Below, piece by piece: positions 28,689-40,552 of a DNA stretch of 40,552 bases (positions are counted from its first letter, which is position 1; each line of letters starts with the position of its first letter). Origin of the DNA: Dysgonamonadaceae bacterium (GTDB taxonomy: Bacteria; Bacteroidota; Bacteroidia; Bacteroidales; Azobacteroidaceae); contig JAISOJ010000108.1 in the NCBI GenBank assembly GCA_031275735.1, positions 1-40,552 on the forward strand, given 5' to 3'. The notes under the pieces were generated by a model. The model did not search any database. It saw only the letters and a program-made list of their open reading frames with translations, and was not told the DNA's origin. Made by a program: the position numbers and the translations under genes.

Positions 28689-30617
28689 ATGAAACATCCA
28701 TCTTTCTCATCCGTCACTCGTCGCTTGTCACTTGTCACCCGTCACCCGTCACCCGTCACTCGTCACTTGTCACCCGTCACTCGTTTACTCGTCAACTCGT
28801 TTACTTGTTTACTCGTTTACTCGTCAACCTATCTACTCCTCACAAGCTGCGATGATTTTTTCGACGTCGAGCCGGCCGCCTTTATCGACAACGCGGAAGC
28901 CTGGAACGACGAAGAAACCGTCAATGCTATCCTGGCCGACGCTTACGCACGAATCAATCACGAAGATTTCTCCTATTTTGAAGGCTTTTGGGTATATTCA
29001 CTCTTGAATTTAAGTTCCGCCTCCGACGAAACCTGGCCTTCGTGGCAACAAGGAGAATTTGGAACAGGAGGAAAAATGCAGGTCATTTTCGGAGATACCT
29101 GGTTTTACATCTGGCCTTACGACCAAATCCGGAACTGCAACGAAATCATCCGGAAAACAGATCTTTCAGACCATGCACAGAAAGAACAGATCAAGGCAGA
29201 AATACGCTTCATCCGCGCTTACCATTATTTCCTTTTAGTCAAGCGATTCGGCGGCGTTCCACTCATCAGGGAGGTACAGGAATACCAGACGGAAAATACG
29301 GAAGCGCTGGAAATTCCCCGAAGCAAAGAACAGGAAATATGGGACTTCATTGCTGCCGAAATGGATACTATTGCCTTGATTCTGCCGCAAAAGCGCTCTG
29401 CCGACAATCGGAGCAGGGTTTCGCGCTATGCAGCTTATGCCTTGAAATCGAGAGCAATGCTCTATGCCGCATCCATTGCAAAGTATGGAAAAACGGAATT
29501 AAACGGTCTGGCAGGAATCGATGCTCCCCCCGAAAAATATTGGGAAGCTGCGGCAACAGCCGCCGATTCGGTTATCCAATCCGGAACCTATCATCTCTAC
29601 AATCAATATCCGGATAAAGCGGAAAATTACAACCGCCTGTTTTTAGACAAAAATAATGAAGAATATATATGGACCAAAGAATACCGGCTGCCTGAATCGG
29701 GACACAGTTTCGATCACATGACGACGCCTTACAGTTTTACGAGCGGATACGGCTGCGGATTAACCCCTGCACTCGAATTTGTCGAAGCTTACGAATACAT
29801 CGACGGCGCCCCCGGCAAACTCCCCGTTGAAAAAGAGGCAACGCCCATACAGTACGATCATCCCCTGGATTTATTTGCCGGAAAAGATCCGCGCCTGTTT
29901 GCATCGGTCTATTTACCCATGTCGAAATTCAAGGACGGAACAGTGGAAATACGTCGAGGCATGTACACCGAAGCAACCCGAAGTTATAAAGCCGCTTCCA
30001 ATTTAATGGAAAAAACGGTATTACAAGGCCGGAAAGATTCGATTACGCTAAGCGGAAAAGACGGCATTATACTCACATCCGATCCTACCAATACCGGCTT
30101 TTACCAGAAAAAATTCTATGACGAAAGCCGGAAAGATTTTTCCGAAAACAAATCCGACCAGCCCTGGCCGCTGTTTCGTCTGGCAGAAATGTATTTGAAT
30201 AAAGCGGAAGCCCAAATGGAATTAGGAAACAAAAAAGAAGCCGCGGAAGCGCTGAACCGGGTGAGGCAACGCGCCGGAATCCGCGTATTAACGACCGACG
30301 AAATCACGATGGAACGTATCCGGAACGAACGGAGGATAGAATTAGCATTTGAAGGTCACCGGTTTTGGGATTTGCGCCGGTGGCGAATAGCCGCTCCGGG
30401 CAGCGATCCCCGTGCGGGCATATTATCCCCCTTGCCGCCGACAGCGCTTTTCCCCTGGATTGTTTACGAAAACGGAAAATACGTTTTCACGAAAGCCTCC
30501 GGCGCTTCGGAAGTGCAAAAACCCAATAAGATTTTCCTTCAACGACATTATTACCTGAAATTGAAGCCCGAAGAAATAAATTCGAACAAAAAATTAATTC
30601 AAAATCCCGGATATTAG
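28689..30617 (+). CDS. SusD/RagB glycan-binding lipoprotein with a repeat-encoded leader
   Basis: A 642-residue surface lipoprotein that caps the SusC barrel. The SusD domain starts at CDDFFDVEPA (lipid cysteine Cys54) and runs through SDETWPSWQQG, EIRFIRAYHYFLLVKRFGGV, ADNRSRVSRYAAYALKSRAM and the C-terminal NRVRQRAGI / ERRIELAFEGHRFWDLRRW, the strongest SusD hallmarks. The first 53 residues are unusual: they are encoded by tandem repeats of about 7 bases (28711-28783, giving VTRHPSP-like heptads) and then 8 bases (28784-28828, giving LLVYSF-like residues), with the lipobox LLTSC behind them. No other in-frame Met exists before the lipobox, so translation must pass through the repeats from ATG 28689, 6 bases after susC. 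Confidence 0.93.
   Translation: MKHPSFSSVTRRLSLVTRHPSPVTRHLSPVTRLLVNSFTCLLVYSSTYLLLTSCDDFFDVEPAAFIDNAEAWNDEETVNAILADAYARINHEDFSYFEGFWVYSLLNLSSASDETWPSWQQGEFGTGGKMQVIFGDTWFYIWPYDQIRNCNEIIRKTDLSDHAQKEQIKAEIRFIRAYHYFLLVKRFGGVPLIREVQEYQTENTEALEIPRSKEQEIWDFIAAEMDTIALILPQKRSADNRSRVSRYAAYALKSRAMLYAASIAKYGKTELNGLAGIDAPPEKYWEAAATAADSVIQSGTYHLYNQYPDKAENYNRLFLDKNNEEYIWTKEYRLPESGHSFDHMTTPYSFTSGYGCGLTPALEFVEAYEYIDGAPGKLPVEKEATPIQYDHPLDLFAGKDPRLFASVYLPMSKFKDGTVEIRRGMYTEATRSYKAASNLMEKTVLQGRKDSITLSGKDGIILTSDPTNTGFYQKKFYDESRKDFSENKSDQPWPLFRLAEMYLNKAEAQMELGNKKEAAEALNRVRQRAGIRVLTTDEITMERIRNERRIELAFEGHRFWDLRRWRIAAPGSDPRAGILSPLPPTALFPWIVYENGKYVFTKASGASEVQKPNKIFLQRHYYLKLKPEEINSNKKLIQNPGY
28711..28828. repeat. Tandem 7-base then 8-base repeats in the susD leader
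   Basis: About ten units of TCAC(C/T)(C/T)G (7 bases; 28711-28783) run directly into about six units of TTTACTCG/TCAACTCG/TTTACTTG (8 bases; 28784-28828). The 8-base family is also found in the DUF3823 and GH2 genes. All of it is in frame and translated as part of SusD. Confidence 0.9.
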
Positions 30618-30620
30618 CGT

Positions 30621-31478
30621 ATGAAATTATTTATTTATCCAAGAGTTAACAAGTTAACGAGTAAACAAGTTAACGAGAGGCGCGAAGCGCTGCAAGTAGG
30701 CGCCTCCCTCTCGTCAGCTCATCAACTCGTTTACTCGTTTACTTGTTTACTCGTCTACTTGTTCACTGCTTGTGAAATCGACAACTACGAACCGCCCACC
30801 GGCGGATTGTACGGACAAATCGTAGACGCGGAAACCGGCGATCCTGTGCCGCAGCCGCTCCCTTCCGAGGGAGGACTTCGCCTGCGGTTTTACGAGGCGG
30901 ACAGAGAAAACGCTATCGAACAGCATTTTTACGCCCAGGCAGACGGGTCGTATAAAAACACCCATTTGTTTAACGGGCCTGTACGCTTAGTATTGGAACA
31001 GCGGAATTTTTTCCCGATTGATACGGTAGAGTTGAATATTCAGGGACAAACAAAGAAAGACATTGAAGTGATACCCTACGCCCGAATCAAGGTTAAAAGC
31101 CTGCAAGCAGACGGAAATCTCATCACCGCCGGTTTTACGATCGAAAGAAGCAAAAACCGGTCGTATGAACGGCTTCACCTGTCGCAATATCTCCTGCTCT
31201 GGCACGCCTCGCCTTACATCGACAGGCAAACGGTTAATTTTTCAGGGCAAATTTCGACCGGATTTCCGGATGAGCCGGACGCTTTGAACCGGCTGCATGA
31301 CGTCGCGCTGGATTTGTCGGACGACACAAACAGAAAATTATTAAAAGAAAAAGCAAATATCATATCGGGAAACGGAAACATAATTTATATCCGCCTCTGC
31401 CTTATTACATACGACGAAAGCAGCGATGCGATTTATGCCAATTACAGTTCGACATATCCAATTAAAATAGCATTATAA
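30621..31478 (+). CDS. DUF3823-type surface lipoprotein with a repeat-encoded leader
   Basis: A 285-residue protein following susD by 3 bases. DUF3823 proteins commonly sit right after susD in Bacteroidetes loci and are presumed surface glycan-binding lipoproteins; the mature part opens CEIDNYEPPTGGLYGQIVDA, followed by ETGDPVPQPLPSEGGLRLRF, the family's N-terminal beta-sandwich pattern, and a second domain from about residue 158. The leader (residues 1-50) is atypical. It contains VNKLTSKQVN from an 8-base array in reverse orientation (30644-30676), a GC-rich centre, and QLVYSFTCLLVYLFTAC from the forward array (30722-30762), where Cys51 is the lipid-modified residue. Translation from ATG 30621 through the repeats is required to make the lipobox. 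Confidence 0.82.
   Translation: MKLFIYPRVNKLTSKQVNERREALQVGASLSSAHQLVYSFTCLLVYLFTACEIDNYEPPTGGLYGQIVDAETGDPVPQPLPSEGGLRLRFYEADRENAIEQHFYAQADGSYKNTHLFNGPVRLVLEQRNFFPIDTVELNIQGQTKKDIEVIPYARIKVKSLQADGNLITAGFTIERSKNRSYERLHLSQYLLLWHASPYIDRQTVNFSGQISTGFPDEPDALNRLHDVALDLSDDTNRKLLKEKANIISGNGNIIYIRLCLITYDESSDAIYANYSSTYPIKIAL
30644..30762. repeat. Inverted 8-base repeat arrays in the DUF3823 leader
   Basis: Left arm of four AGTTAAC(A/G)/AGTAAACA units (30644-30676), a centre with GAGGCGC/GCGCCTC stem (30677-30706), and a right arm of five TTTACTCG-type units (30722-30762). The arms are reverse complements, so the transcript can fold into a long hairpin. Confidence 0.88.
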
Positions 31479-31501
31479 TTACAATAAAACAATAGAAAAT
31501 T

Positions 31502-32638
31502 ATGAGCAAAAAGATTATTTCAGGTTTACTGCCTACCGCCCTCCTTTTCTTCTCCTGTGGAGAAAAAGACACAGCCGGCACGCCGGTTTTTCCAATGGGG
31601 CCTTTTGTCCGTTCAACCGTGGCGAACCCGGTTATCCTCCCCGATACAGCAACGCTGTTTTTAGACCCGCTGTCGAACGATTCGCTCGCATGGGAAGCCG
31701 GTGACACATTCAATCCCGCCGCCGCTGTGCTGAATGATGAGATTATCATCCTTTACCGGGCGGAAGACCGGTCGGGCCAAGGCATCGGGCAACGGACTTC
31801 CCGCCTGGGCTACGCTTCGTCGAAAGACGGCTTGCACTTTACAAGGCTTTCGACGCCGGTACTCTTCCCCGACAACGATTCGCAAAAGGAAATGGAATAT
31901 CCGGGCGGCTGCGAAGATCCCCGCATCGCCCTGTCGGAAGATGGGCAGTATGTGATGCTGTACACGCAATGGAACCGGCAGACGCCCCGACTGGCGGTTG
32001 CTACTTCTACCGACCTGAAAACATGGACAAAACAGGGACCGGCTTTTGCCCGGGCATACGGCGGGCGTTTTAACGAGTACTTTTCAAAATCAGCTTCCAT
32101 CGTTACCGAAATAAAGAACGGCAAACAAACCATTGTCCCAATCGGAGGCAAATACTGGATGTACTGGGGCGAAAAAGCGGTTTATGCGGCTACTTCCGAT
32201 AACCTGACCGACTGGACGCCGCTATTGGACGACAAGCAGGAATTGAAGGTACTCTACCAACCGCGAAAAGGCTATTTCGACAGCGAACTGACGGAATGCG
32301 GCCCGCCAGCCATACGAACCAAGGAAGGAATCATTTTGTTGTATAATGGAAAAAACCGCGAAGGCGAAGGCGGCGATCCCAATTATACCGCCCGCACTTA
32401 TTGCGCCGGTCAGGCGCTGTTTGACGCCAACCACCCCGACAGGCTGCTGAAAGTAGAAGATAAACCCTTTTTGATCCCGCAGGAATCGTTCGAAAAAAGC
32501 GGACAATATCCGGCAGGCACCGTCTTCGTCGAAGGCATGGCCTATTTCCGCGGCAAATGGTTTCTATACTACGGCTGTGCCGATTCGCGAGTAGCAGTAG
32601 CAATATACGATCCTTCCAATAATAAAAATAAAAAATGA
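31502..32638 (+). CDS. GH130 beta-mannoside phosphorylase/mannosidase lipoprotein
   Basis: A 378-residue five-bladed beta-propeller enzyme of family GH130, whose members phosphorolyse or hydrolyse beta-mannosides (beta-1,4-Man-GlcNAc or beta-1,2-mannan). Residues 1-19 are a lipoprotein signal (LLFFSCG, Cys19). Family motifs: FNPAAAVLNDEIIILYRAED, SRLGYASSKDGLHF, YPGGCEDPR (Glu138-Asp139, catalytic region), and KYWMYWGEKAVYAATSDNL. The C-terminal blade shows VEGMAYFRGKWFLYYGCADS. Whether it is a phosphorylase or hydrolase depends on active-site residues I cannot align here. It is translationally coupled to the GH92 gene by a 4-base overlap. Confidence 0.85.
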   Translation: MSKKIISGLLPTALLFFSCGEKDTAGTPVFPMGPFVRSTVANPVILPDTATLFLDPLSNDSLAWEAGDTFNPAAAVLNDEIIILYRAEDRSGQGIGQRTSRLGYASSKDGLHFTRLSTPVLFPDNDSQKEMEYPGGCEDPRIALSEDGQYVMLYTQWNRQTPRLAVATSTDLKTWTKQGPAFARAYGGRFNEYFSKSASIVTEIKNGKQTIVPIGGKYWMYWGEKAVYAATSDNLTDWTPLLDDKQELKVLYQPRKGYFDSELTECGPPAIRTKEGIILLYNGKNREGEGGDPNYTARTYCAGQALFDANHPDRLLKVEDKPFLIPQESFEKSGQYPAGTVFVEGMAYFRGKWFLYYGCADSRVAVAIYDPSNNKNKK

Positions 32639-34971
32639 AAAAAACAAACCTTATCCTCGTTTCCCTACTCCTGCTTTCGGCCTGTTCACATACCAGGCCG
32701 GAGGAAATAAAGGGAAAAAAACCCTGGCAATATGTCAATCCATTTGTCGGAGCAAGTACCAGCATCGGAGCAGCAGGAGTTTATCACGGCTTGGGTAAAA
32801 CCTTTCCCGGAGCCACTACACCCTACGGAATGGTGCAGGTAAGCCCAAACACCATTACCGGCGGCGACAACAGCCCCGGCTACAGTTATGAACATCAAAC
32901 CATCGAAGGCTTCGCTTTCACCCAGATGAGCGGCGTAGGCTGGTACGGCGATTTGGGAAACTTTTTAGTTATGCCCGCCACCGGAACACTGAAAACCGCC
33001 GCCGGAAAAGAGAACTCCCGCAAAGGATACCGCTCGTATTACGCCAAAGAATCCGAAAAAGCCTCCTGCGGATATTATGCCGTAGAATTAACCGATTACG
33101 ATATACTGGTCGAAGCTACGGCAGCGCCTCACAGCGGAATGTTGAAATTTACATTCCCCAAAAGCAACCAGTCGCGTATCCAGATTGATCTGGCGAGGCG
33201 CGTAGGAGGAACCTCAACGTATCAATACGCCGAAATCGTCGACGACACGCATCTCAAAGGATGGATGAAATGCTCGCCGGAAGGCGGCGGATGGGGAAAC
33301 GGCGAAGGAAAAGCAGACTATACCGTCTATTTTTTCGCCGAATTGAGCAAACCCATGAAAAAAAACGGATTCTGGACAGCCGACATCCCCCCTCGCCAGG
33401 TACGCCTGCGCGATGAAGTGCAAAGCGACGAATACCAAAAGCGGATCGCCCAGGCGCGGATTATCTACGACCGGACGAAATGCGAAGGAAAGCATATCGG
33501 TTTTTTTACCGAATTTGAAACCAAAACCAAAGAAGAGCTTACGCTGAAAGTCGGCATCTCCTTTGTGGATATGGAAGGCGCACGCAACAATTTTGAAAAG
33601 GAAATTGCCGGTAAAACATTCGAAGAAATCCGCCGGGACGCCGAAAATCAGTGGAACAGCGCCCTGTCGAAACTTCAGGTCGAAAGCCGCAACGAAGAAG
33701 ATAAAATCATTTTCTATACCGCACTGTATCATACGATGATCGACCCGCGCATTTATACGGATGTAGACGGGCGGTACACCGGCGGCGACGGACGTATTCA
33801 TACGGCAGAGGGTTTTACCCGGCGTACGATTTTCAGCGGATGGGACGTATTTCGCTCGCAATTCCCCCTGCAAACGCTGATTAATCCCCAACTGGTCAAC
33901 GACGAACTCAATTCCCTCATTACGCTTGCCGAAGAAAGCGGAAATGAATACTACGAACGCTGGGAACTTTTGAACGCTTACAGCGGCTGTATGATCGGCA
34001 ATCCTGCCCTGCCGGTATTGGCAGACGCTTGGCTGAAAGGTATTCGCGGCTACGACATCGAAAAAGCCTACCGATATGCCGTCCACTCGTCCGAACGCTT
34101 TAGCAATCCCGACGATAAGGGTTTTTACGGTCCGCCGTACAGTATTTCCAATACCCTCGAATATGCTTATGCCGACTGGTGCCTGGCGCAGTTGGCCAAA
34201 GACCTGGGTAAAACCGCCGACGCCGAACGGTTTACGATAAAAGGAGGCTATTACCGGAATGTTTTTGATCCTTCGATCAAATGGTTCCGGCCCCGCCAAG
34301 ACAACGGCGAGTGGGAAAAATGGGACGATAATTCGCTGACGGAGGAAGGATTCGGATCTATCGAAACCAATCCCTATCAACAAGGCTGGTTTGTGCCGCA
34401 AGACGTTGACGGGCTGGTGGAGTTGATGGGCGGACGCGAAGCGGCGCTGGCCTTCCTGAACGGCTTCTTTGAAAAAGCGCCGGAAAATATGCTCTGGAAT
34501 CAGTATTACAATCATGCCAACGAACCGGTGCATCACGCGGCTTATCTCTACAACCGCATACAATCGCCCTGGCTAACGCAGAAATGGACGCGAACCGTAT
34601 GCAAACGCGCTTACTTCAATTCCGTCGAAGGGCTGGTAGGAAACGAAGACGCCGGGCAAATGTCGGCATGGTACGTACTGTCGGCCACCGGAATCTACCC
34701 CTTCTGTCCGGGCGAAACAAGGTATGAAATCACTTCGCCCGTGTTTGATAAAATCATTTATACAACGCCCGCCACAGGCAATACATTTACGATTATTGCC
34801 CACAACAATTCGCCGGAGAATATGTATATCCAATCGGCCAAGCTGAACGGCGATCCGTATAACCGGTGCTTCATCGATCATGCCGCCATCCTCAAAGGAG
34901 GAACGCTGGAATTATTCATGGGAACGTATCCCAACCGGCTATGGGGAATAGAAGAGAGAACTAAAAACTAA
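32635..34971 (+). CDS. GH92 alpha-mannosidase lipoprotein
   Basis: A 778-residue calcium-dependent exo-alpha-mannosidase of family GH92, widely used to trim high-mannose N-glycans and fungal mannans. It has a lipoprotein signal (LLLLSACS, Cys17). The N-terminal beta-sandwich begins VNPFVGASTS, with TFPGATTPYGMVQVSP and SPGYSYEHQTIEGFAFTQMS; the alpha/alpha-barrel domain holds FYTALYHTMIDPRIYTDVDG, FSGWDVFRSQFPL, and GNEDAGQMSAWYVLSATGIY, the strongest family motif. The last residues RTKN and the stop are written by the start of a dispersed repeat (34958 onward). It starts within the end of the GH130 gene. The linkage specificity is not determined by the sequence. Confidence 0.95.
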   Translation: MKKTNLILVSLLLLSACSHTRPEEIKGKKPWQYVNPFVGASTSIGAAGVYHGLGKTFPGATTPYGMVQVSPNTITGGDNSPGYSYEHQTIEGFAFTQMSGVGWYGDLGNFLVMPATGTLKTAAGKENSRKGYRSYYAKESEKASCGYYAVELTDYDILVEATAAPHSGMLKFTFPKSNQSRIQIDLARRVGGTSTYQYAEIVDDTHLKGWMKCSPEGGGWGNGEGKADYTVYFFAELSKPMKKNGFWTADIPPRQVRLRDEVQSDEYQKRIAQARIIYDRTKCEGKHIGFFTEFETKTKEELTLKVGISFVDMEGARNNFEKEIAGKTFEEIRRDAENQWNSALSKLQVESRNEEDKIIFYTALYHTMIDPRIYTDVDGRYTGGDGRIHTAEGFTRRTIFSGWDVFRSQFPLQTLINPQLVNDELNSLITLAEESGNEYYERWELLNAYSGCMIGNPALPVLADAWLKGIRGYDIEKAYRYAVHSSERFSNPDDKGFYGPPYSISNTLEYAYADWCLAQLAKDLGKTADAERFTIKGGYYRNVFDPSIKWFRPRQDNGEWEKWDDNSLTEEGFGSIETNPYQQGWFVPQDVDGLVELMGGREAALAFLNGFFEKAPENMLWNQYYNHANEPVHHAAYLYNRIQSPWLTQKWTRTVCKRAYFNSVEGLVGNEDAGQMSAWYVLSATGIYPFCPGETRYEITSPVFDKIIYTTPATGNTFTIIAHNNSPENMYIQSAKLNGDPYNRCFIDHAAILKGGTLELFMGTYPNRLWGIEERTKN

Positions 34972-35058
34972 AAGTTACGCGAAGCGCAGCAAACATTGCG
35001 TCGCGAAGTAGAGACGTATTGCAATACGTCTCTACGCTCCCTTGGTCGACAGGACGGG
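34958..35058. repeat. Dispersed repeat, copy A (behind GH92)
   Basis: About 100 bases, near identical to 39847-39946: GAACTAAAAACTAAAAGTTA, a CGCGA...TCGCG stem, then a perfect 28-base palindrome (35008-35035; half GTAGAGACGTATTG), and CGCTCCCTTGGT. It begins inside the last codons of GH92. Confidence 0.9.
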
Positions 35059-35076
35059 AAACTCACAAAAAAGAGT

Positions 35077-35120
35077 GGGCTGTCCCAAAAGTGCGTCATC
35101 CAGCGCTTGACGCGGGATTC
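35077..35120. mobile_element. Single end of a MITE-like element
   Basis: GGGCTGTCCCAAAAG (35077-35091) and the following GTCATC..GCGCTTG.CGCGGGAT match the reverse complement of the right end of the element at 39968-40119 over about 40 bases. No second end is present here, so this is a truncated copy. It is followed by 7-base repeats of ATTCATA (35117-35151). Confidence 0.6.
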
Positions 35121-35156
35121 ATAATTCATAATTCATAATTTATAATTCATTTACGT

Positions 35157-38100
35157 ATGAAACAATCATGTTTAACAAATGCACAAAAAAGAGTGACAAG
35201 TGATAAGTTAACGAGTAAACAAGTAAACGGGTTAACGAGTAAACAAGTAAACGAGTTAACGAGTAAACAAGTTAACGGGTTAACGAGTTGGCGAGTAAAC
35301 AAGTTAACGAGTAAACAAGTTAACGGGAGGGACGCATCCCCTTGCGGCGCTTCGCGCCACTCGTTTACTCGTTTACTCGTCAACTCGTTTACTTGTGGAT
35401 TACTTTCCATTTCGCTTTCTGCACCGGCCGTAGCGCAGCAAAAATATTCCCTAAACAGTGATAATCCAGCTATCATTTGGGAAATCAAGCCGAAAGACGA
35501 TTTGACGCCCAAAACCGGATTCGACATTTCGACGCCGGGATTCGATAACGCCGGATATGTAAAAGGCGTCGTACCCGGAACGGTTTTTACGGCCTACGTA
35601 GAAGCCGGCCTCGCAGCCGACCCCAATTATGGCGACAATATCTACCTGGAAGACGAATCGTTTTACAATCGACCCTTCTGGTACCGCACCGAATTTGATT
35701 GGCCGTCTTCCGAAGAAAACGGCCGGCGGGTTTGGCTGCATTTTGACGGCGCCAACCGGTTTGCCGACTATTACTTCAACGGAGAAAAACTTTCCGGAAC
35801 GCCCGCTTCCACCAAAGATGTAAGCGGACACATGATCCGCACAAAATACGACGTGACGGATTTAATCAACAAAACAGGAAAAAATGCAGTTGCCGTCCTG
35901 ATTACCGACGCCGACCAGAAAAAACACAGGGACGAACAATCGTGGTGGGGCGACAATGTATTCGGCAACTGGGCAAGCCCCACCTATCTCGCCGCCGGCG
36001 GCTGGGACTGGATGCCGTACGTGCCCGGACGACTGGCCGGAATAACCGGCAATGCCTATCTGATGATTACCGGCGACGCCGTAATAGAAGACCCCTGGAT
36101 AAGAGCAGACTTGCCCACCTGTCAACAGGCAGAAATCTCCATTGCCGTCCACATCAAAAACGCAGCCTCCGAATCGAAAGAAGTGATCCTCGACGGCGTA
36201 ATCAACCCCGGAAATATACAGTTTTCAAAAACACTCGCCCTCCCGGCCCAAACAACGCTTGCCGTCAAACTGAATAAAGACGAATACCCGCAGCTGGCAA
36301 TTAACAATCCGAAACTCTGGTACCCGAACGGATACGGCAACCCCGATTTATATACCTGCCGCTTAACCTGCTCGGAAGACGGAAAAGAATCGGATGCAAA
36401 AACAGTTTCATTCGGAATAAAAAAATACGAATACCGGCTTATCGAAAATTCAAAAAACATCCCCGTACTGACGCTCTTTATAAACGGCCAAAAACTGTTC
36501 TTAAAAGGCGGCAACTGGGGCATGAGCGAATACCTTCTCCGCTGCCGCGGCAAAGAATACGAAACCCGGATTTTACTTCATAAAGACATGAACTACAATA
36601 TGATCAGGCTGTGGACAGGCTGTGTCACCGACGATGAATTTTACGATTACTGCGACCAATACGGACTGATGGTTTGGGACGATTTTTGGCATTACTTTTC
36701 CTATTTCGGAGGACCCGACAAACCGGAAGATTTCAAGTCGAACGCCCTCGACAAAGTCAAGCGCCTGCGAAACCATCCCTGTATCGCCGTATGGTGCGGG
36801 GCGAATGAAACAACCCCGGCCGACGACCTGAATAATTATTTAAAAGACTTGATCGCCGCCGAAGACAACAACGACCGCCATTACCAACCCTGCTCCAATT
36901 CGGGCGGCCTGTCAGGAAGCGGCTGGTGGCTAAACAAAACGCCCAAAAGTCATTTCGAATCATCGGGAAGCAACCTGGGCGACGGCTATCCCTACGGCTC
37001 AACCTACGGTTACGGCTTGCGGACGGAAATCGGAACCGCCACCTTCCCCACATTCGAAAGCGTAAAAGAATTTATTCCCCCCAACGACCATTGGCCCCTG
37101 CCGAGCGACGAGCAGTTGAAAAACGACAACAATACGGTCTGGAACAAACATTTTTTCGGAAAGGAAGCCGCAAATGCCGGCCCCGACACCTACCGGAATA
37201 CGGTCGACCGGCAGTTTGGAGCCTCTTCCGGACTGGAAGAATTTTGCGAAAAATCACAACTCCTGAATATCGAAGTAATGAAAGGCATGTACGAGGCCTG
37301 GAACGACAAAATGTGGAACGACGCCACAGGCATTCTAATATGGATGAGCCAATCGGCCTATCCCTCCTTCGTATGGCAAACTTACGATTACTATTACGAT
37401 GCAACCGGAGCCTACTGGGGAGCCAAAAGAGCCTGCGAACCGCTGCATATTCAGTGGAACAGCAGCAACTATGCCATACGGGTGATTAATACGACTCCCG
37501 GCGACTGTAACGGATTGACAGCCAGGGCGATTATTTATGATTCGACAGGGAAGGAAATTACCTCAACCGCCAAACAGGTGAATGCGCCGGCCGGTATGCC
37601 CGCAAACTGTTTCCAGTTAAGTAAATCGACGGCAAACCTTCCGGACGTCCATTTCCTGAAACTGATACTGACCGACGCTTCCGGTAAGCTTGTTTCCGAA
37701 AACTGGTATTTGAAAGGCAAAACGGAATACGACTACACGCAATTGAAATCCATTCCCCGAGCCAATCTCTCGATAGCCGTTGACGGGAAAACCGAAAACG
37801 GCCAATACCTCCTGGACGCTTCCATCACCAATGCGGAAAATTCACCCGCTTTGGCCTATGGCGTCCGCCTGCGTGTGGTCAACGCCATTACCGGCGAACG
37901 GATACTTCCCATTTTCTTGCCGGACAATTATCTGTTGATCCTGCCGGGCGAAACCAAAAAAATCCAAATCACATTCGACGCCGCCCTCCTGAAAGGCGCA
38001 GAACCCCAATTGATGGTAAAACAATTCCTGCAGCCCGAAGAATCCGTTTCGGTCATTCAATCGCTTGCCGCAGAATATTTACCCGATATTAACATATACC

Positions 38101-38297
38101 CGAATCCGGCCGGCAACACCTTCCTCATCGACTGCCCGACGACCATCGATAAAGTCACGGTTTTTAATTCCTCCGGCAATAAAGTCTATGCCGGATCGGA
38201 AAAACGAATTGATGCGGGAGCGCTTCCCCGGGGCGTTTATTTTGCAAATATCAAAACAGACAAACAAATCGTATGCAAACGCATTATAAAAAACTAA
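35157..38297 (+). CDS. GH2 beta-mannosidase-like enzyme with repeat-encoded leader and T9SS tail
   Basis: A 1046-residue secreted glycoside hydrolase of family 2, closest in layout to exo-beta-mannosidase / endo-beta-mannosidase and exo-beta-glucosaminidase enzymes. The GH2 sugar-binding domain starts near residue 105 (PGTVFTAYVEAGLAADPNYG), with a beta-sandwich middle and a TIM barrel from about 435; acid/base Glu551 is in WCGANETTP, nucleophile Glu624 in RTEIGTATFPTFES. The end (about 975-1046; INIYPNPAGNTF ... GVYFANIKTDK) is a type A T9SS sorting domain, so it should be exported across the outer membrane. The leader is extraordinary: residues 17-57 are LTSKQVN(G/E) octads from an 8-base array, then RLLVNSFTCGLLSISLSAPAVA from the opposite array, with predicted signal peptidase cleavage after Ala93. 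Confidence 0.9.
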   Translation: MKQSCLTNAQKRVTSDKLTSKQVNGLTSKQVNELTSKQVNGLTSWRVNKLTSKQVNGRDASPCGASRHSFTRLLVNSFTCGLLSISLSAPAVAQQKYSLNSDNPAIIWEIKPKDDLTPKTGFDISTPGFDNAGYVKGVVPGTVFTAYVEAGLAADPNYGDNIYLEDESFYNRPFWYRTEFDWPSSEENGRRVWLHFDGANRFADYYFNGEKLSGTPASTKDVSGHMIRTKYDVTDLINKTGKNAVAVLITDADQKKHRDEQSWWGDNVFGNWASPTYLAAGGWDWMPYVPGRLAGITGNAYLMITGDAVIEDPWIRADLPTCQQAEISIAVHIKNAASESKEVILDGVINPGNIQFSKTLALPAQTTLAVKLNKDEYPQLAINNPKLWYPNGYGNPDLYTCRLTCSEDGKESDAKTVSFGIKKYEYRLIENSKNIPVLTLFINGQKLFLKGGNWGMSEYLLRCRGKEYETRILLHKDMNYNMIRLWTGCVTDDEFYDYCDQYGLMVWDDFWHYFSYFGGPDKPEDFKSNALDKVKRLRNHPCIAVWCGANETTPADDLNNYLKDLIAAEDNNDRHYQPCSNSGGLSGSGWWLNKTPKSHFESSGSNLGDGYPYGSTYGYGLRTEIGTATFPTFESVKEFIPPNDHWPLPSDEQLKNDNNTVWNKHFFGKEAANAGPDTYRNTVDRQFGASSGLEEFCEKSQLLNIEVMKGMYEAWNDKMWNDATGILIWMSQSAYPSFVWQTYDYYYDATGAYWGAKRACEPLHIQWNSSNYAIRVINTTPGDCNGLTARAIIYDSTGKEITSTAKQVNAPAGMPANCFQLSKSTANLPDVHFLKLILTDASGKLVSENWYLKGKTEYDYTQLKSIPRANLSIAVDGKTENGQYLLDASITNAENSPALAYGVRLRVVNAITGERILPIFLPDNYLLILPGETKKIQITFDAALLKGAEPQLMVKQFLQPEESVSVIQSLAAEYLPDINIYPNPAGNTFLIDCPTTIDKVTVFNSSGNKVYAGSEKRIDAGALPRGVYFANIKTDKQIVCKRIIKN
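35206..35396. repeat. Large inverted 8-base repeat in the GH2 leader
   Basis: Fifteen units of AGTTAACG/AGTAAACA/AGTAAACG and variants (35206-35327), a GC-rich centre (35328-35358), then four to five units of the reverse complement TTTACTCG/TCAACTCG (35359-35396). The left arm shows a 24-base higher-order rhythm. All of it is translated in the GH2 frame. Confidence 0.92.
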
Positions 38298-38395
38298 GAA
38301 CTAAGAGTTAAGTGTAGAGACGTATTGCAATACGTCTCTACTTCGCAAAGCGCGGCAAGTAGAGACGTTGCGCGCAACGTCTCTACTAAAAACTC
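38290..38395. repeat. Dispersed repeat, copy C (behind GH2)
   Basis: AACTAAGAACTAAGAGTTAA begins at the GH2 stop, then two perfect 28-base palindromes follow: 38314-38341 (half GTAGAGACGTATTG) and 38359-38386 (half GTAGAGACGTTGCG), separated by TTCGCAAAGCGCGGCAA. These are transcribed as two hairpins. Confidence 0.9.
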
Positions 38396-39846: not shown

Positions 39847-39946
39847 GAACTAAAAACTAAAAGTTACGCGAAGCGCGGCAATCATTGCTTCGCGAAGTAG
39901 AGACGTATTGGAATACGTCTCTACGCTCCCTTGGTAGACATGACGG
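39847..39946. repeat. Dispersed repeat, copy B (behind the SGNH gene)
   Basis: Nearly identical to copy A. It contains an 8-base stem CGCGAAGC/GCTTCGCG and the 28-base palindrome at 39897-39924 with one mismatch at its centre. It begins 3 bases after the SGNH stop codon. Confidence 0.9.
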
Positions 39947-40201: not shown

Positions 40202-40552
40202 TTATATGGCGCCGTATTCATTTTGTTTAAGAATTTCAGAGACTTTGTCTATCGTTAATCCGGTAATGGAGGCAATAGTTTCGACAGCCAGGCCGGCTTT
40301 GTTGCCTGCTATTACGACTTCTGTTTTTCCTTTTTCCAATCCAACGGCTTCTCCTTCCGCACGTCCTTCCGCACGTCCTTCCGCACGTCCTTCTGCTCGT
40401 CCTTCTGCTCGTCCTTCTGCCCGTCCTTCTGCCCGTCCTTCCGCTCGTCCTTCTATCATTGAGGTTTTTATTACACTTTTTTGGTACCGTAATGCTTCTA
40501 TATGTGCGTCGTATGCTTCCCGTTCCGCTTTGTTCAACCGGTCTTTCCGCAA
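40202..40552 (-). CDS. Rpn-family nuclease/transposase, C-terminal part with RAEG repeats
   Basis: The 3' portion of a gene that continues beyond the window; 116 residues are visible on the minus strand and no reliable start is seen. The sequence (KAEREAYDAHIEALRYQKSV) matches the end of the catalytic region of Rpn/PD-(D/E)XK proteins, which are DNase-like recombination-promoting factors. It is followed by eight RAEG tetrapeptides (encoded by 12-base units, about 40354-40451) and a C-terminal helical module (NKAGLAVETIASITGLTIDKV) of a kind repeated at the ends of these proteins. The 12-base units keep the frame whatever their number. The catalytic domain itself is not in view. Confidence 0.75.
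   Translation of the reverse strand: MRKDRLNKAEREAYDAHIEALRYQKSVIKTSMIEGRAEGRAEGRAEGRAEGRAEGRAEGRAEGRAEGEAVGLEKGKTEVVIAGNKAGLAVETIASITGLTIDKVSEILKQNEYGAI

Follow-up and report, generated by a model that had tools for sequence, protein, structure and literature searches.

A repeat cassette placed at start codons of a Dysgonamonadaceae genome, with tandem arrays that probably replace some native signal peptides

What is a tandem repeat whose unit is not a multiple of three doing at the very beginning of a protein-coding gene? The question is raised by a stretch of 40,552 nt (the window hereafter; contig JAISOJ010000108.1, forward strand, assembly GCA_031275735.1 of a Dysgonamonadaceae bacterium; Bacteroidales; Azobacteroidaceae), in which three genes of one polysaccharide utilization locus (PUL) begin with arrays of 7- and 8-base units. 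They encode a SusD-family lipoprotein (susD), a DUF3823 lipoprotein and a predicted exported enzyme of glycoside hydrolase (GH) family 2. A reading made from these letters alone (the sequence-only reading) took the octamer to be a ready-made signal peptide that works in any frame. We describe here a repeat cassette that sits at start codons throughout this genome, and we consider it likely that its arrays have replaced native signal peptides in some genes. The genome is a metagenome-assembled genome (MAG) of 2.43 Mb, 75.9% complete in 114 contigs, from samples that we take to be of termite gut origin.

Results

Genome matches to three octamers of the pattern ACTYGTYW number 305, versus 0 for the reversed pattern, and the heptamer pattern TCACYYG has 47 matches; the arrays thus belong to a dispersed repeat family rather than to local noise. 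Most run in the sense orientation within the first 20–60 codons of long open reading frames (ORFs). In the loci read around arrays (stretches picked by sequence alone, from which our background figures also come), the common unit is a cassette of ~90 bp that begins with ATGAAACA, continues in octamers and ends in TTTTCGT, directly before the ATGAAA of the host gene. It encodes MK(H/Q)SCLTNTQEHENGYSFTRQLVNSLTHFR, followed in most leaders by MK and an ordinary signal peptide. The flanks beyond both ends are unrelated between copies. A sequence model of the cassette has 120 genome matches, the loci contain 62 distinct cassette starts, and the junction TTTWCGTATGAAA occurs 43 times, versus 2 for a control; one gene (L059) carries two units in tandem. 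The commonest length is exactly 90 bp (26/44). A stem of the GAAAATGAGTA/TACTCATTTTC type has three compensated pairs in 12 sequences, with a z score of only −1.9. A MAG this incomplete and fragmented invites the suspicion of an assembly artefact or of decaying genes, an explanation we find scarcely credible: the 62 sites are spread over many contigs with exact junctions and intact ORFs, and the same cassette occurs in independent MAGs. Moreover, mature susD has a dN/dS of 0.088 against its closest orthologue (0.28 for DUF3823), and both mature proteins are under purifying selection.

The cassette is placed with precision. About 55 of the 62 starts coincide exactly with a gene start; of all ATGAAA sequences in the stretches sampled, ~15% do so. 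Relative G018 provides empty sites. The upstream regions of its thioredoxin-like lipoprotein gene (L202) and of the cassette-bearing L061 are closely similar, and in G018 ATTAATAATATAAAAA... leads straight into ATGAAAAAGTTG; for NAD kinase, the G018 locus L196 reads GGAAATGTAAC/ATG and L095 reads GAAATGTAAT/cassette/ATG. In the empty sites the upstream sequence can be aligned as far as the ATG, so the insertion point is the start codon. ATGAAA (or ATG) flanks filled sites on both sides and stands once in empty sites, a pattern that a target-site duplication could leave but that the gene's own need for a start codon would also give. Among the leaders and ORFs examined, no copy lies inside a mature domain.

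The genes that carry the cassette in frame are nearly all exported. Forty-four of 45 such ORFs (counted at ≥120 codons) were judged exported by inspection, that is, from a hydrophobic N-terminus or lipobox only; the families represented include SusD, GH2, GH43, OEP, Omp28, TonB and S9. The clearly cytosolic genes with copies are those for NAD kinase and thymidylate synthase, where the copies are out of frame or broken; before NAD kinase, the cassette-initiated ORF ends in a TGA that overlaps the kinase ATG. Because 41 of 54 cassette-free genes that start with ATGAAA are also exported (Fisher P = 0.0002 versus cassette genes), the target sequence would account for much of the bias and selection for the rest.

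Is the leader translated? Four indirect tests, all made on sequence, concur in supporting this: stop codons, antisense frames, missing native start codons, and a pattern of Cys residues. Among 58 distinct substitutions in 40 cassettes, none creates a stop, versus 3.9 expected (P = 0.004). Selection at the level of the peptide was not found in these cassettes (15 synonymous changes observed versus 13.3 expected); zero stops without a synonymous excess indicates that the open frame has been preserved, not a particular peptide. In GH2 and L041b, the antisense arms can be read through in no frame but that of the gene (permutation P ~0.002, a value that a 24-bp higher-order repeat makes generous); of the long antisense arms in relatives, 1 of 10 is open. 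Genes were divided automatically, and then corrected by eye with the short L110 excluded, into those with and those without a start codon of their own behind the cassette. Sixteen, among them susD, DUF3823 and GH2, have no native start there: the second ATG has decayed to ATA in L047, L052 and L036 and to an ACG-type Thr codon in L051, and in further genes array sequence makes up part or all of the native signal.

The Cys pattern concerns seven leaders with array-coded hydrophobic cores. Their last T-[R/C] unit has Cys in 7/7, and the earlier units of the same leaders have Cys in 1/17 and Arg in 16/17 (P = 2 × 10−5 versus the last unit); in cassettes that stand before native signals, Cys occurs in 7/26 and Arg in 19/26 (P = 0.0008 versus array-coded cores). 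The seven may share array ancestry, and to that extent these values do not come from fully independent leaders. The change from Arg to Cys would yield the order of a signal peptide, charge followed by hydrophobic core. Judged by composition and lipobox only, the array-coded cores reach hydrophobicity means of 1.8–2.2, with Arg before and Cys within the core, and they are accompanied by a cleavage motif or lipobox.

Orthologues tell what the arrays have displaced. In G001 (85% identical), G018 and G014, the orthologous susD starts after the stop codon of susC and encodes a short signal peptide, e.g. MKQVKYIFLFLGILLVS/C; the DUF3823 orthologues have MIKKYMQITGIGLIAAVFTA/C. The cassette-like 5′ end of susD at 28689..28710 is homologous to the start codon of the orthologous susD genes. 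Since the SusD and DUF3823 proteins of sister species thus carry ordinary signal peptides of 17–20 residues from a homologous start, the arrays have, on this comparison, replaced the native ones. The sequence-only reading had named orthologues as a possible source of refutation; they place the start upstream of the array, not downstream, and its claim that the array codes for the hydrophobic core of these genes is borne out, in genes whose orthologues carry an ordinary signal peptide. A start downstream of the arrays was considered for the window genes and rejected, because orthologues start before the position of the arrays and there is no later ATG in frame. In susD, the TTG codons of residues 13 and 27 are possible starts, from which the signal would still be array-coded. 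Array-made signal peptides in the window genes are therefore well supported as a prediction, with susD and DUF3823 apparently fully in the replaced state and GH2 partly. The GH130 and GH92 genes that lie between them in the same operon have kept ordinary signals.

These data bear on the idea that the copies are untranslated or regulatory 5′ elements, acting through protein binding or RNA structure in the way suggested for TAACTGA heptamers, with translation starting at the second ATG and the open frames a by-product of a stop-free unit of 90 bp. Such elements would suit the about 32 genes in which a native ATG and signal peptide survive intact after the cassette, the copies that stand out of frame at the NAD kinase and thymidylate synthase genes, the paired arms found between genes in relatives, and the stop-containing ATTCATA arrays before other ATGAAA starts. 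They would not explain the 16 genes that lack a later native start, the position of orthologous start codons upstream of arrays, the absence of stops among 58 substitutions, or antisense arms whose one open frame is that of the gene, and we regard this explanation as unlikely.

Unit lengths that are not multiples of three raise a different prospect, phase variation, in which slippage by 7 or 8 bases would toggle exported proteins ON and OFF and the leaders would be contingency loci. Array lengths are highly variable, and a few exported genes have out-of-frame arrays (L044 at 4063, L054, L056, L062). But the arrays are degenerate, with about 80–90% matches by TRF, which disfavours slippage; 26 of 44 cassettes are exactly 90 bp; and the out-of-frame genes, each with an ATG of its own, would not have to be silent. 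Contingency loci of this kind seem to us very improbable.

There remains the proposal of the sequence-only reading itself, that the octamer is present because it is a ready-made signal peptide in any frame. Its factual basis is sound in large part: the 7- and 8-base arrays exist where it placed them; its reading frames, susD Cys54, DUF3823 Cys51 and the A-x-A-like site after Ala93 of GH2 match the translations; and (ACTCGTTT)3 encodes TRLLVYSF and (TCACCCG)3 a rotation of VTRHPSP. At least one frame is open in 79/79 sense tracts of 3–7 units and in 32/33 longer ones, and about six genes of the MAG have a core made of octamer tracts. Two further statements hold in part. The absence of stops in any frame applies to the sense strand, whereas antisense arms, of which DUF3823 and GH2 each include one, usually carry TAA; and the octamer product is mildly hydrophobic (TRLLVYSF, best 12-residue Kyte–Doolittle mean 1.48), strongly so only in ACTTGT variants (TCLLVYLF, 2.77). 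The heptamer peptide is hydrophilic (−0.72). The conserved cassette with an ATGAAA start of its own, and its ~60 copies in the genome, had escaped the sequence-only reading. Frame independence fails as a principle: the downstream frame is still set by array length modulo 3, the array does not rescue the frame behind it, out-of-frame copies exist, and antisense arms depend on the frame, that of GH2 being open only in the one used. The ideal peptide, weakly hydrophobic, requires the Arg-to-Cys change; relatives carry the same arrays intergenically; and about two thirds of genes have an intact native signal behind the repeat. As the reason for the octamer's presence, this proposal is barely tenable.

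The repeat extends beyond this genome. Octamers form intergenic inverted paired arms in G020 and G024, and in G018 inverted arms with stops lie ahead of the GH130 gene of the same PUL. Coding leaders recur in G015, in G018 (a SusD-like lipoprotein, L133), in G022 (an outer-membrane efflux protein, apparently the orthologue of L055), and in two more MAGs, labelled Bacteroidales and Prevotellaceae. A plausible order, which we infer, would begin with intergenic paired arms, go on to a unit that carries a start codon, and end in its spread and decay into signal peptides. A search of 392 other genomes of the order at E = 1e−9 gave no cassette match, a weak negative with 10 candidates scored per genome, and viral contigs and plasmids contained no cassette.

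Discussion

The reading that we favour, a repeat cassette at start codons whose arrays replace native signals in some genes, would work as follows. A small dispersed repeat would have spread to at least 60 sites of the genome, nearly all of them gene starts. Its unit brings its own ATGAAACA start, 14–16 codons, a short octamer array and the TTTTCGT end against the host ATGAAA; because it is 30 codons without a stop, insertion fuses a leader in frame, and ribosomes could initiate at the cassette ATG, which stands in place of the native start. Because Sec signal peptides tolerate N-terminal additions and the leader would be removed along with them, in-frame leaders would be kept before exported products. 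The arrays, be they octamers, heptamers or inverted arms, would afterwards grow or shrink. Some genes have lost their native start or their entire native signal peptide, and there the array would act as n- and h-region before a surviving cleavage site or lipobox. The sequence data establish the repeat family, its exact position at start codons, the empty sites, the disappearance of native signal peptides and the open frames; initiation at the cassette ATG, export by the array-coded peptide and mobility are inferences. A stronger version is that the cassette spreads itself, prefers ATGAAA, has taken over initiation with its built-in start across much of the secretome, and carries arrays that turn into new signal peptides and displace the native signals gene by gene. 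This is possible, and we put it forward tentatively and with some doubt.

Several points weigh against the favoured reading. First, ATGAAA is typical of exported genes and could account for much of the export bias. Second, in the ~32 genes with their own ATG and signal peptide, translation may start there, and 4 of 13 length-variant cassettes before such exported genes are out of frame. Third, the start of the GH2 orthologue was not reached on the examined contigs of G001 and G018. Fourth, cassette copies may be related by copying, in which case per-copy statistics are not fully independent, and the permutation value for the antisense arms is, as noted, generous. Finally, a Y1/HUH transposase, the candidate tried as mobiliser, was rejected when Y1_Tnp gave one sub-threshold fragment only; other families were not searched.

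Known systems resemble the cassette in part. Rickettsia palindromic elements (RPEs; Ogata et al. 2000, via PMC10969869 and PMC2229807) are dispersed repeats of ~100–150 bp found in frame in unrelated protein genes. As far as those secondary accounts describe them, the likeness lies in in-frame insertion into unrelated conserved genes with a peptide that the host protein tolerates, here in 45 ORFs and with empty sites. The differences, with the same limit, are that the cassette inserts at the start codon and brings its own ATG, whereas RPE positions are inside the mature protein, and that almost all proteins with the cassette are exported, that its 7/8-mer arrays grow, and that it takes the place of the signal peptide in some genes. 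TAACTGA heptamer arrays (MacGregor 2015, PMC4679880) adjoin start codons in many genes of one genome, and occur in some Bacteroidetes too; like the arrays here, they are short, tandem, forward in orientation and concentrated right at start codons. However, stop codons interrupt each of their three forward frames, most of them lie between genes, and they mark no functional gene class, whereas the units here (ACTYGTYW and TCACYYG) leave the sense frames open and are apparently translated. Because RPEs and TAACTGA arrays each have a defining feature that the cassette lacks, we do not count it as a member of either.

The closest precedent for a repeat within a signal peptide comes from enterobacterial miniature inverted-repeat transposable elements (MITEs), RU-1 and RU-2 (ERIC, YPAL), fused to ORFs (Delihas 2007, PMC2759123). 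One of them forms part of the signal peptide in Yersinia YPO1552 (PMC2759123, PMC2229807), and the category that the sequence-only reading took to be undescribed has a precedent in it. These MITEs differ from the cassette in being single predicted cases that do not have a start codon in common, are not placed systematically at gene starts, and show no replacement of signal peptides at the level of orthologues across several genes. PARCEL repeats (PMC2996958) are likewise palindromic coding repeats, spread over genomes and co-opted in membrane-targeted proteins, but they form 25-residue amphipathic repeat domains of unrelated sequence, not start or signal peptide cassettes. In Schistosoma japonicum, dispersed duplicated DNA supplies a shared signal sequence to many genes (PMC3434034); that system is eukaryotic, involves dispersive duplication tied to repetitive elements, and concerns new genes rather than conserved old ones. 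Matches of ALTTAQ repeats to the antisense peptide were weak, below the Pfam cut-off, and we take them as low-complexity.

In about 60 natural cases, some with empty sites in sister species, the same repeat has been added to the N-terminus of an exported protein or has taken its place. These cases allow gene-by-gene tests of how far signal peptides tolerate new sequence and of how they arise from repeats. At such loci gene callers will choose wrong starts, and signal-peptide calls in MAGs of this kind should be treated with care. The cassette would be an unusual kind of mobile element if its insertion is targeted to start codons.

Additional features

The features of the three leaders are collected in Table 1. 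TRF itself delimited the 7-bp array of susD as tabulated, 8-bp arrays at 28779-28824, 30725-30767 and 35359-35393, and an antisense 8-bp arm at 35205-35325. The paired arms and centre of DUF3823 have a folding z score of −4.9, and the NERREALQ encoded by the centre is also found in two leaders of locus L041.

Table 1. Coordinates of array-led genes and leader elements in the window (TRF, tandem repeat detection; Pfam, domains)
Feature	Position	Strand	Evidence or remark
susD, SusD-family lipoprotein gene, 642 aa; leader residues 1-53, lipobox LTS/C54	28689..30617	+	PF07980, PF14322
susD cassette-like 5′ end, ATGAAACATCCATC...	28689..28710	+	6 bases past susC stop
susD heptamer array (TCAC[CT][CT]G)n, coding for a VTRHPSP-type putative n-region	28712..28800	+	TRF
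susD octamer array coding for TRLLVNSFTCLLVYSST, putative h-region	28779..28832	+	TRF, pattern match, hydrophobicity
DUF3823 lipoprotein gene, 285 aa, lipobox FTA/C51	30621..31478	+	PF12866; PF18003 below cut-off
DUF3823 antisense octamer arm, sense reading NKLTSKQVN	30643..30677	-	TRF
DUF3823 GC-rich centre GAGGCGCGAAGCGC... between arms, coding for NERREALQ	30678..30709	.	leader comparison, folding
DUF3823 sense octamer arm coding for HQLVYSFTCLLVYLFTA, putative h-region	30710..30767	+	TRF
Heptamer array upstream of GH2, (ATTCATA)n, TTTACGT end abutting the GH2 ATGAAA	35117..35156	+	TRF
GH2-family exported enzyme gene (predicted), 1046 aa, T9SS C-terminal sorting domain; leader 1-93	35157..38297	+	Pfam
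GH2 cassette 5′ part, MKQSCLTNAQKRV	35157..35195	+	leader comparison
GH2 antisense octamer arm of 14 units; reads (TSKQVN[GE]L)n in the sense direction, with no open frame but that of the gene	35196..35327	-	
GH2 GC-rich centre between arms	35328..35358	.	
GH2 sense octamer arm TRLLVNSFTC, first half of putative h-region	35359..35396	+	TRF

Variants of the cassette were also seen. At L095 (NAD kinase), a 34-bp mini-unit, ATGAAACATTCATAG...TTTTCGT, with the same ends lies behind an 82-bp cassette. In L122, L124-L126 (G015), L127 and L128, the cassettes share the 5′ part MK(H/Q)SCLTNTQENEN and have another 3′ end with a stop, giving an upstream ORF of ~27–36 codons before the gene. Heptamer arrays of the ATTCATA type, which contain stops and abut ATGAAA with a TTTACGT end, occur at L211 ~594 (-), L213 ~1452 (+) and 35117-35156 of the window; they also precede apparently cytosolic genes and are a second start-codon-associated element with a junction motif in common with the cassette.

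Other repeats lie elsewhere in the window. A ~40-bp sequence, TCCCGCGTCAAGCGC[GT]GGATGACGCACTTTTG[AG]GACAGCCC, occurs at 35073-35115 and upstream of the L054 cassette and is probably another dispersed repeat. Between GH92 and GH2, at 35009-35036, stands the perfect palindrome-like GTAGAGACGTATTGCAATACGTCTCTAC. A 12-bp tandem repeat (TCCTTCCGCACG; 8.5 copies, 94% matches) at 40352-40453 falls inside a minus-strand ORF that runs off the contig at the window end, and, its unit being a multiple of three, it is possibly a coding repeat. Short AACTAAA/AACTAAG heptamer repeats lie at or just past the ends of three window genes, at 34959-34973, 38292-38306 and 39848-39862.

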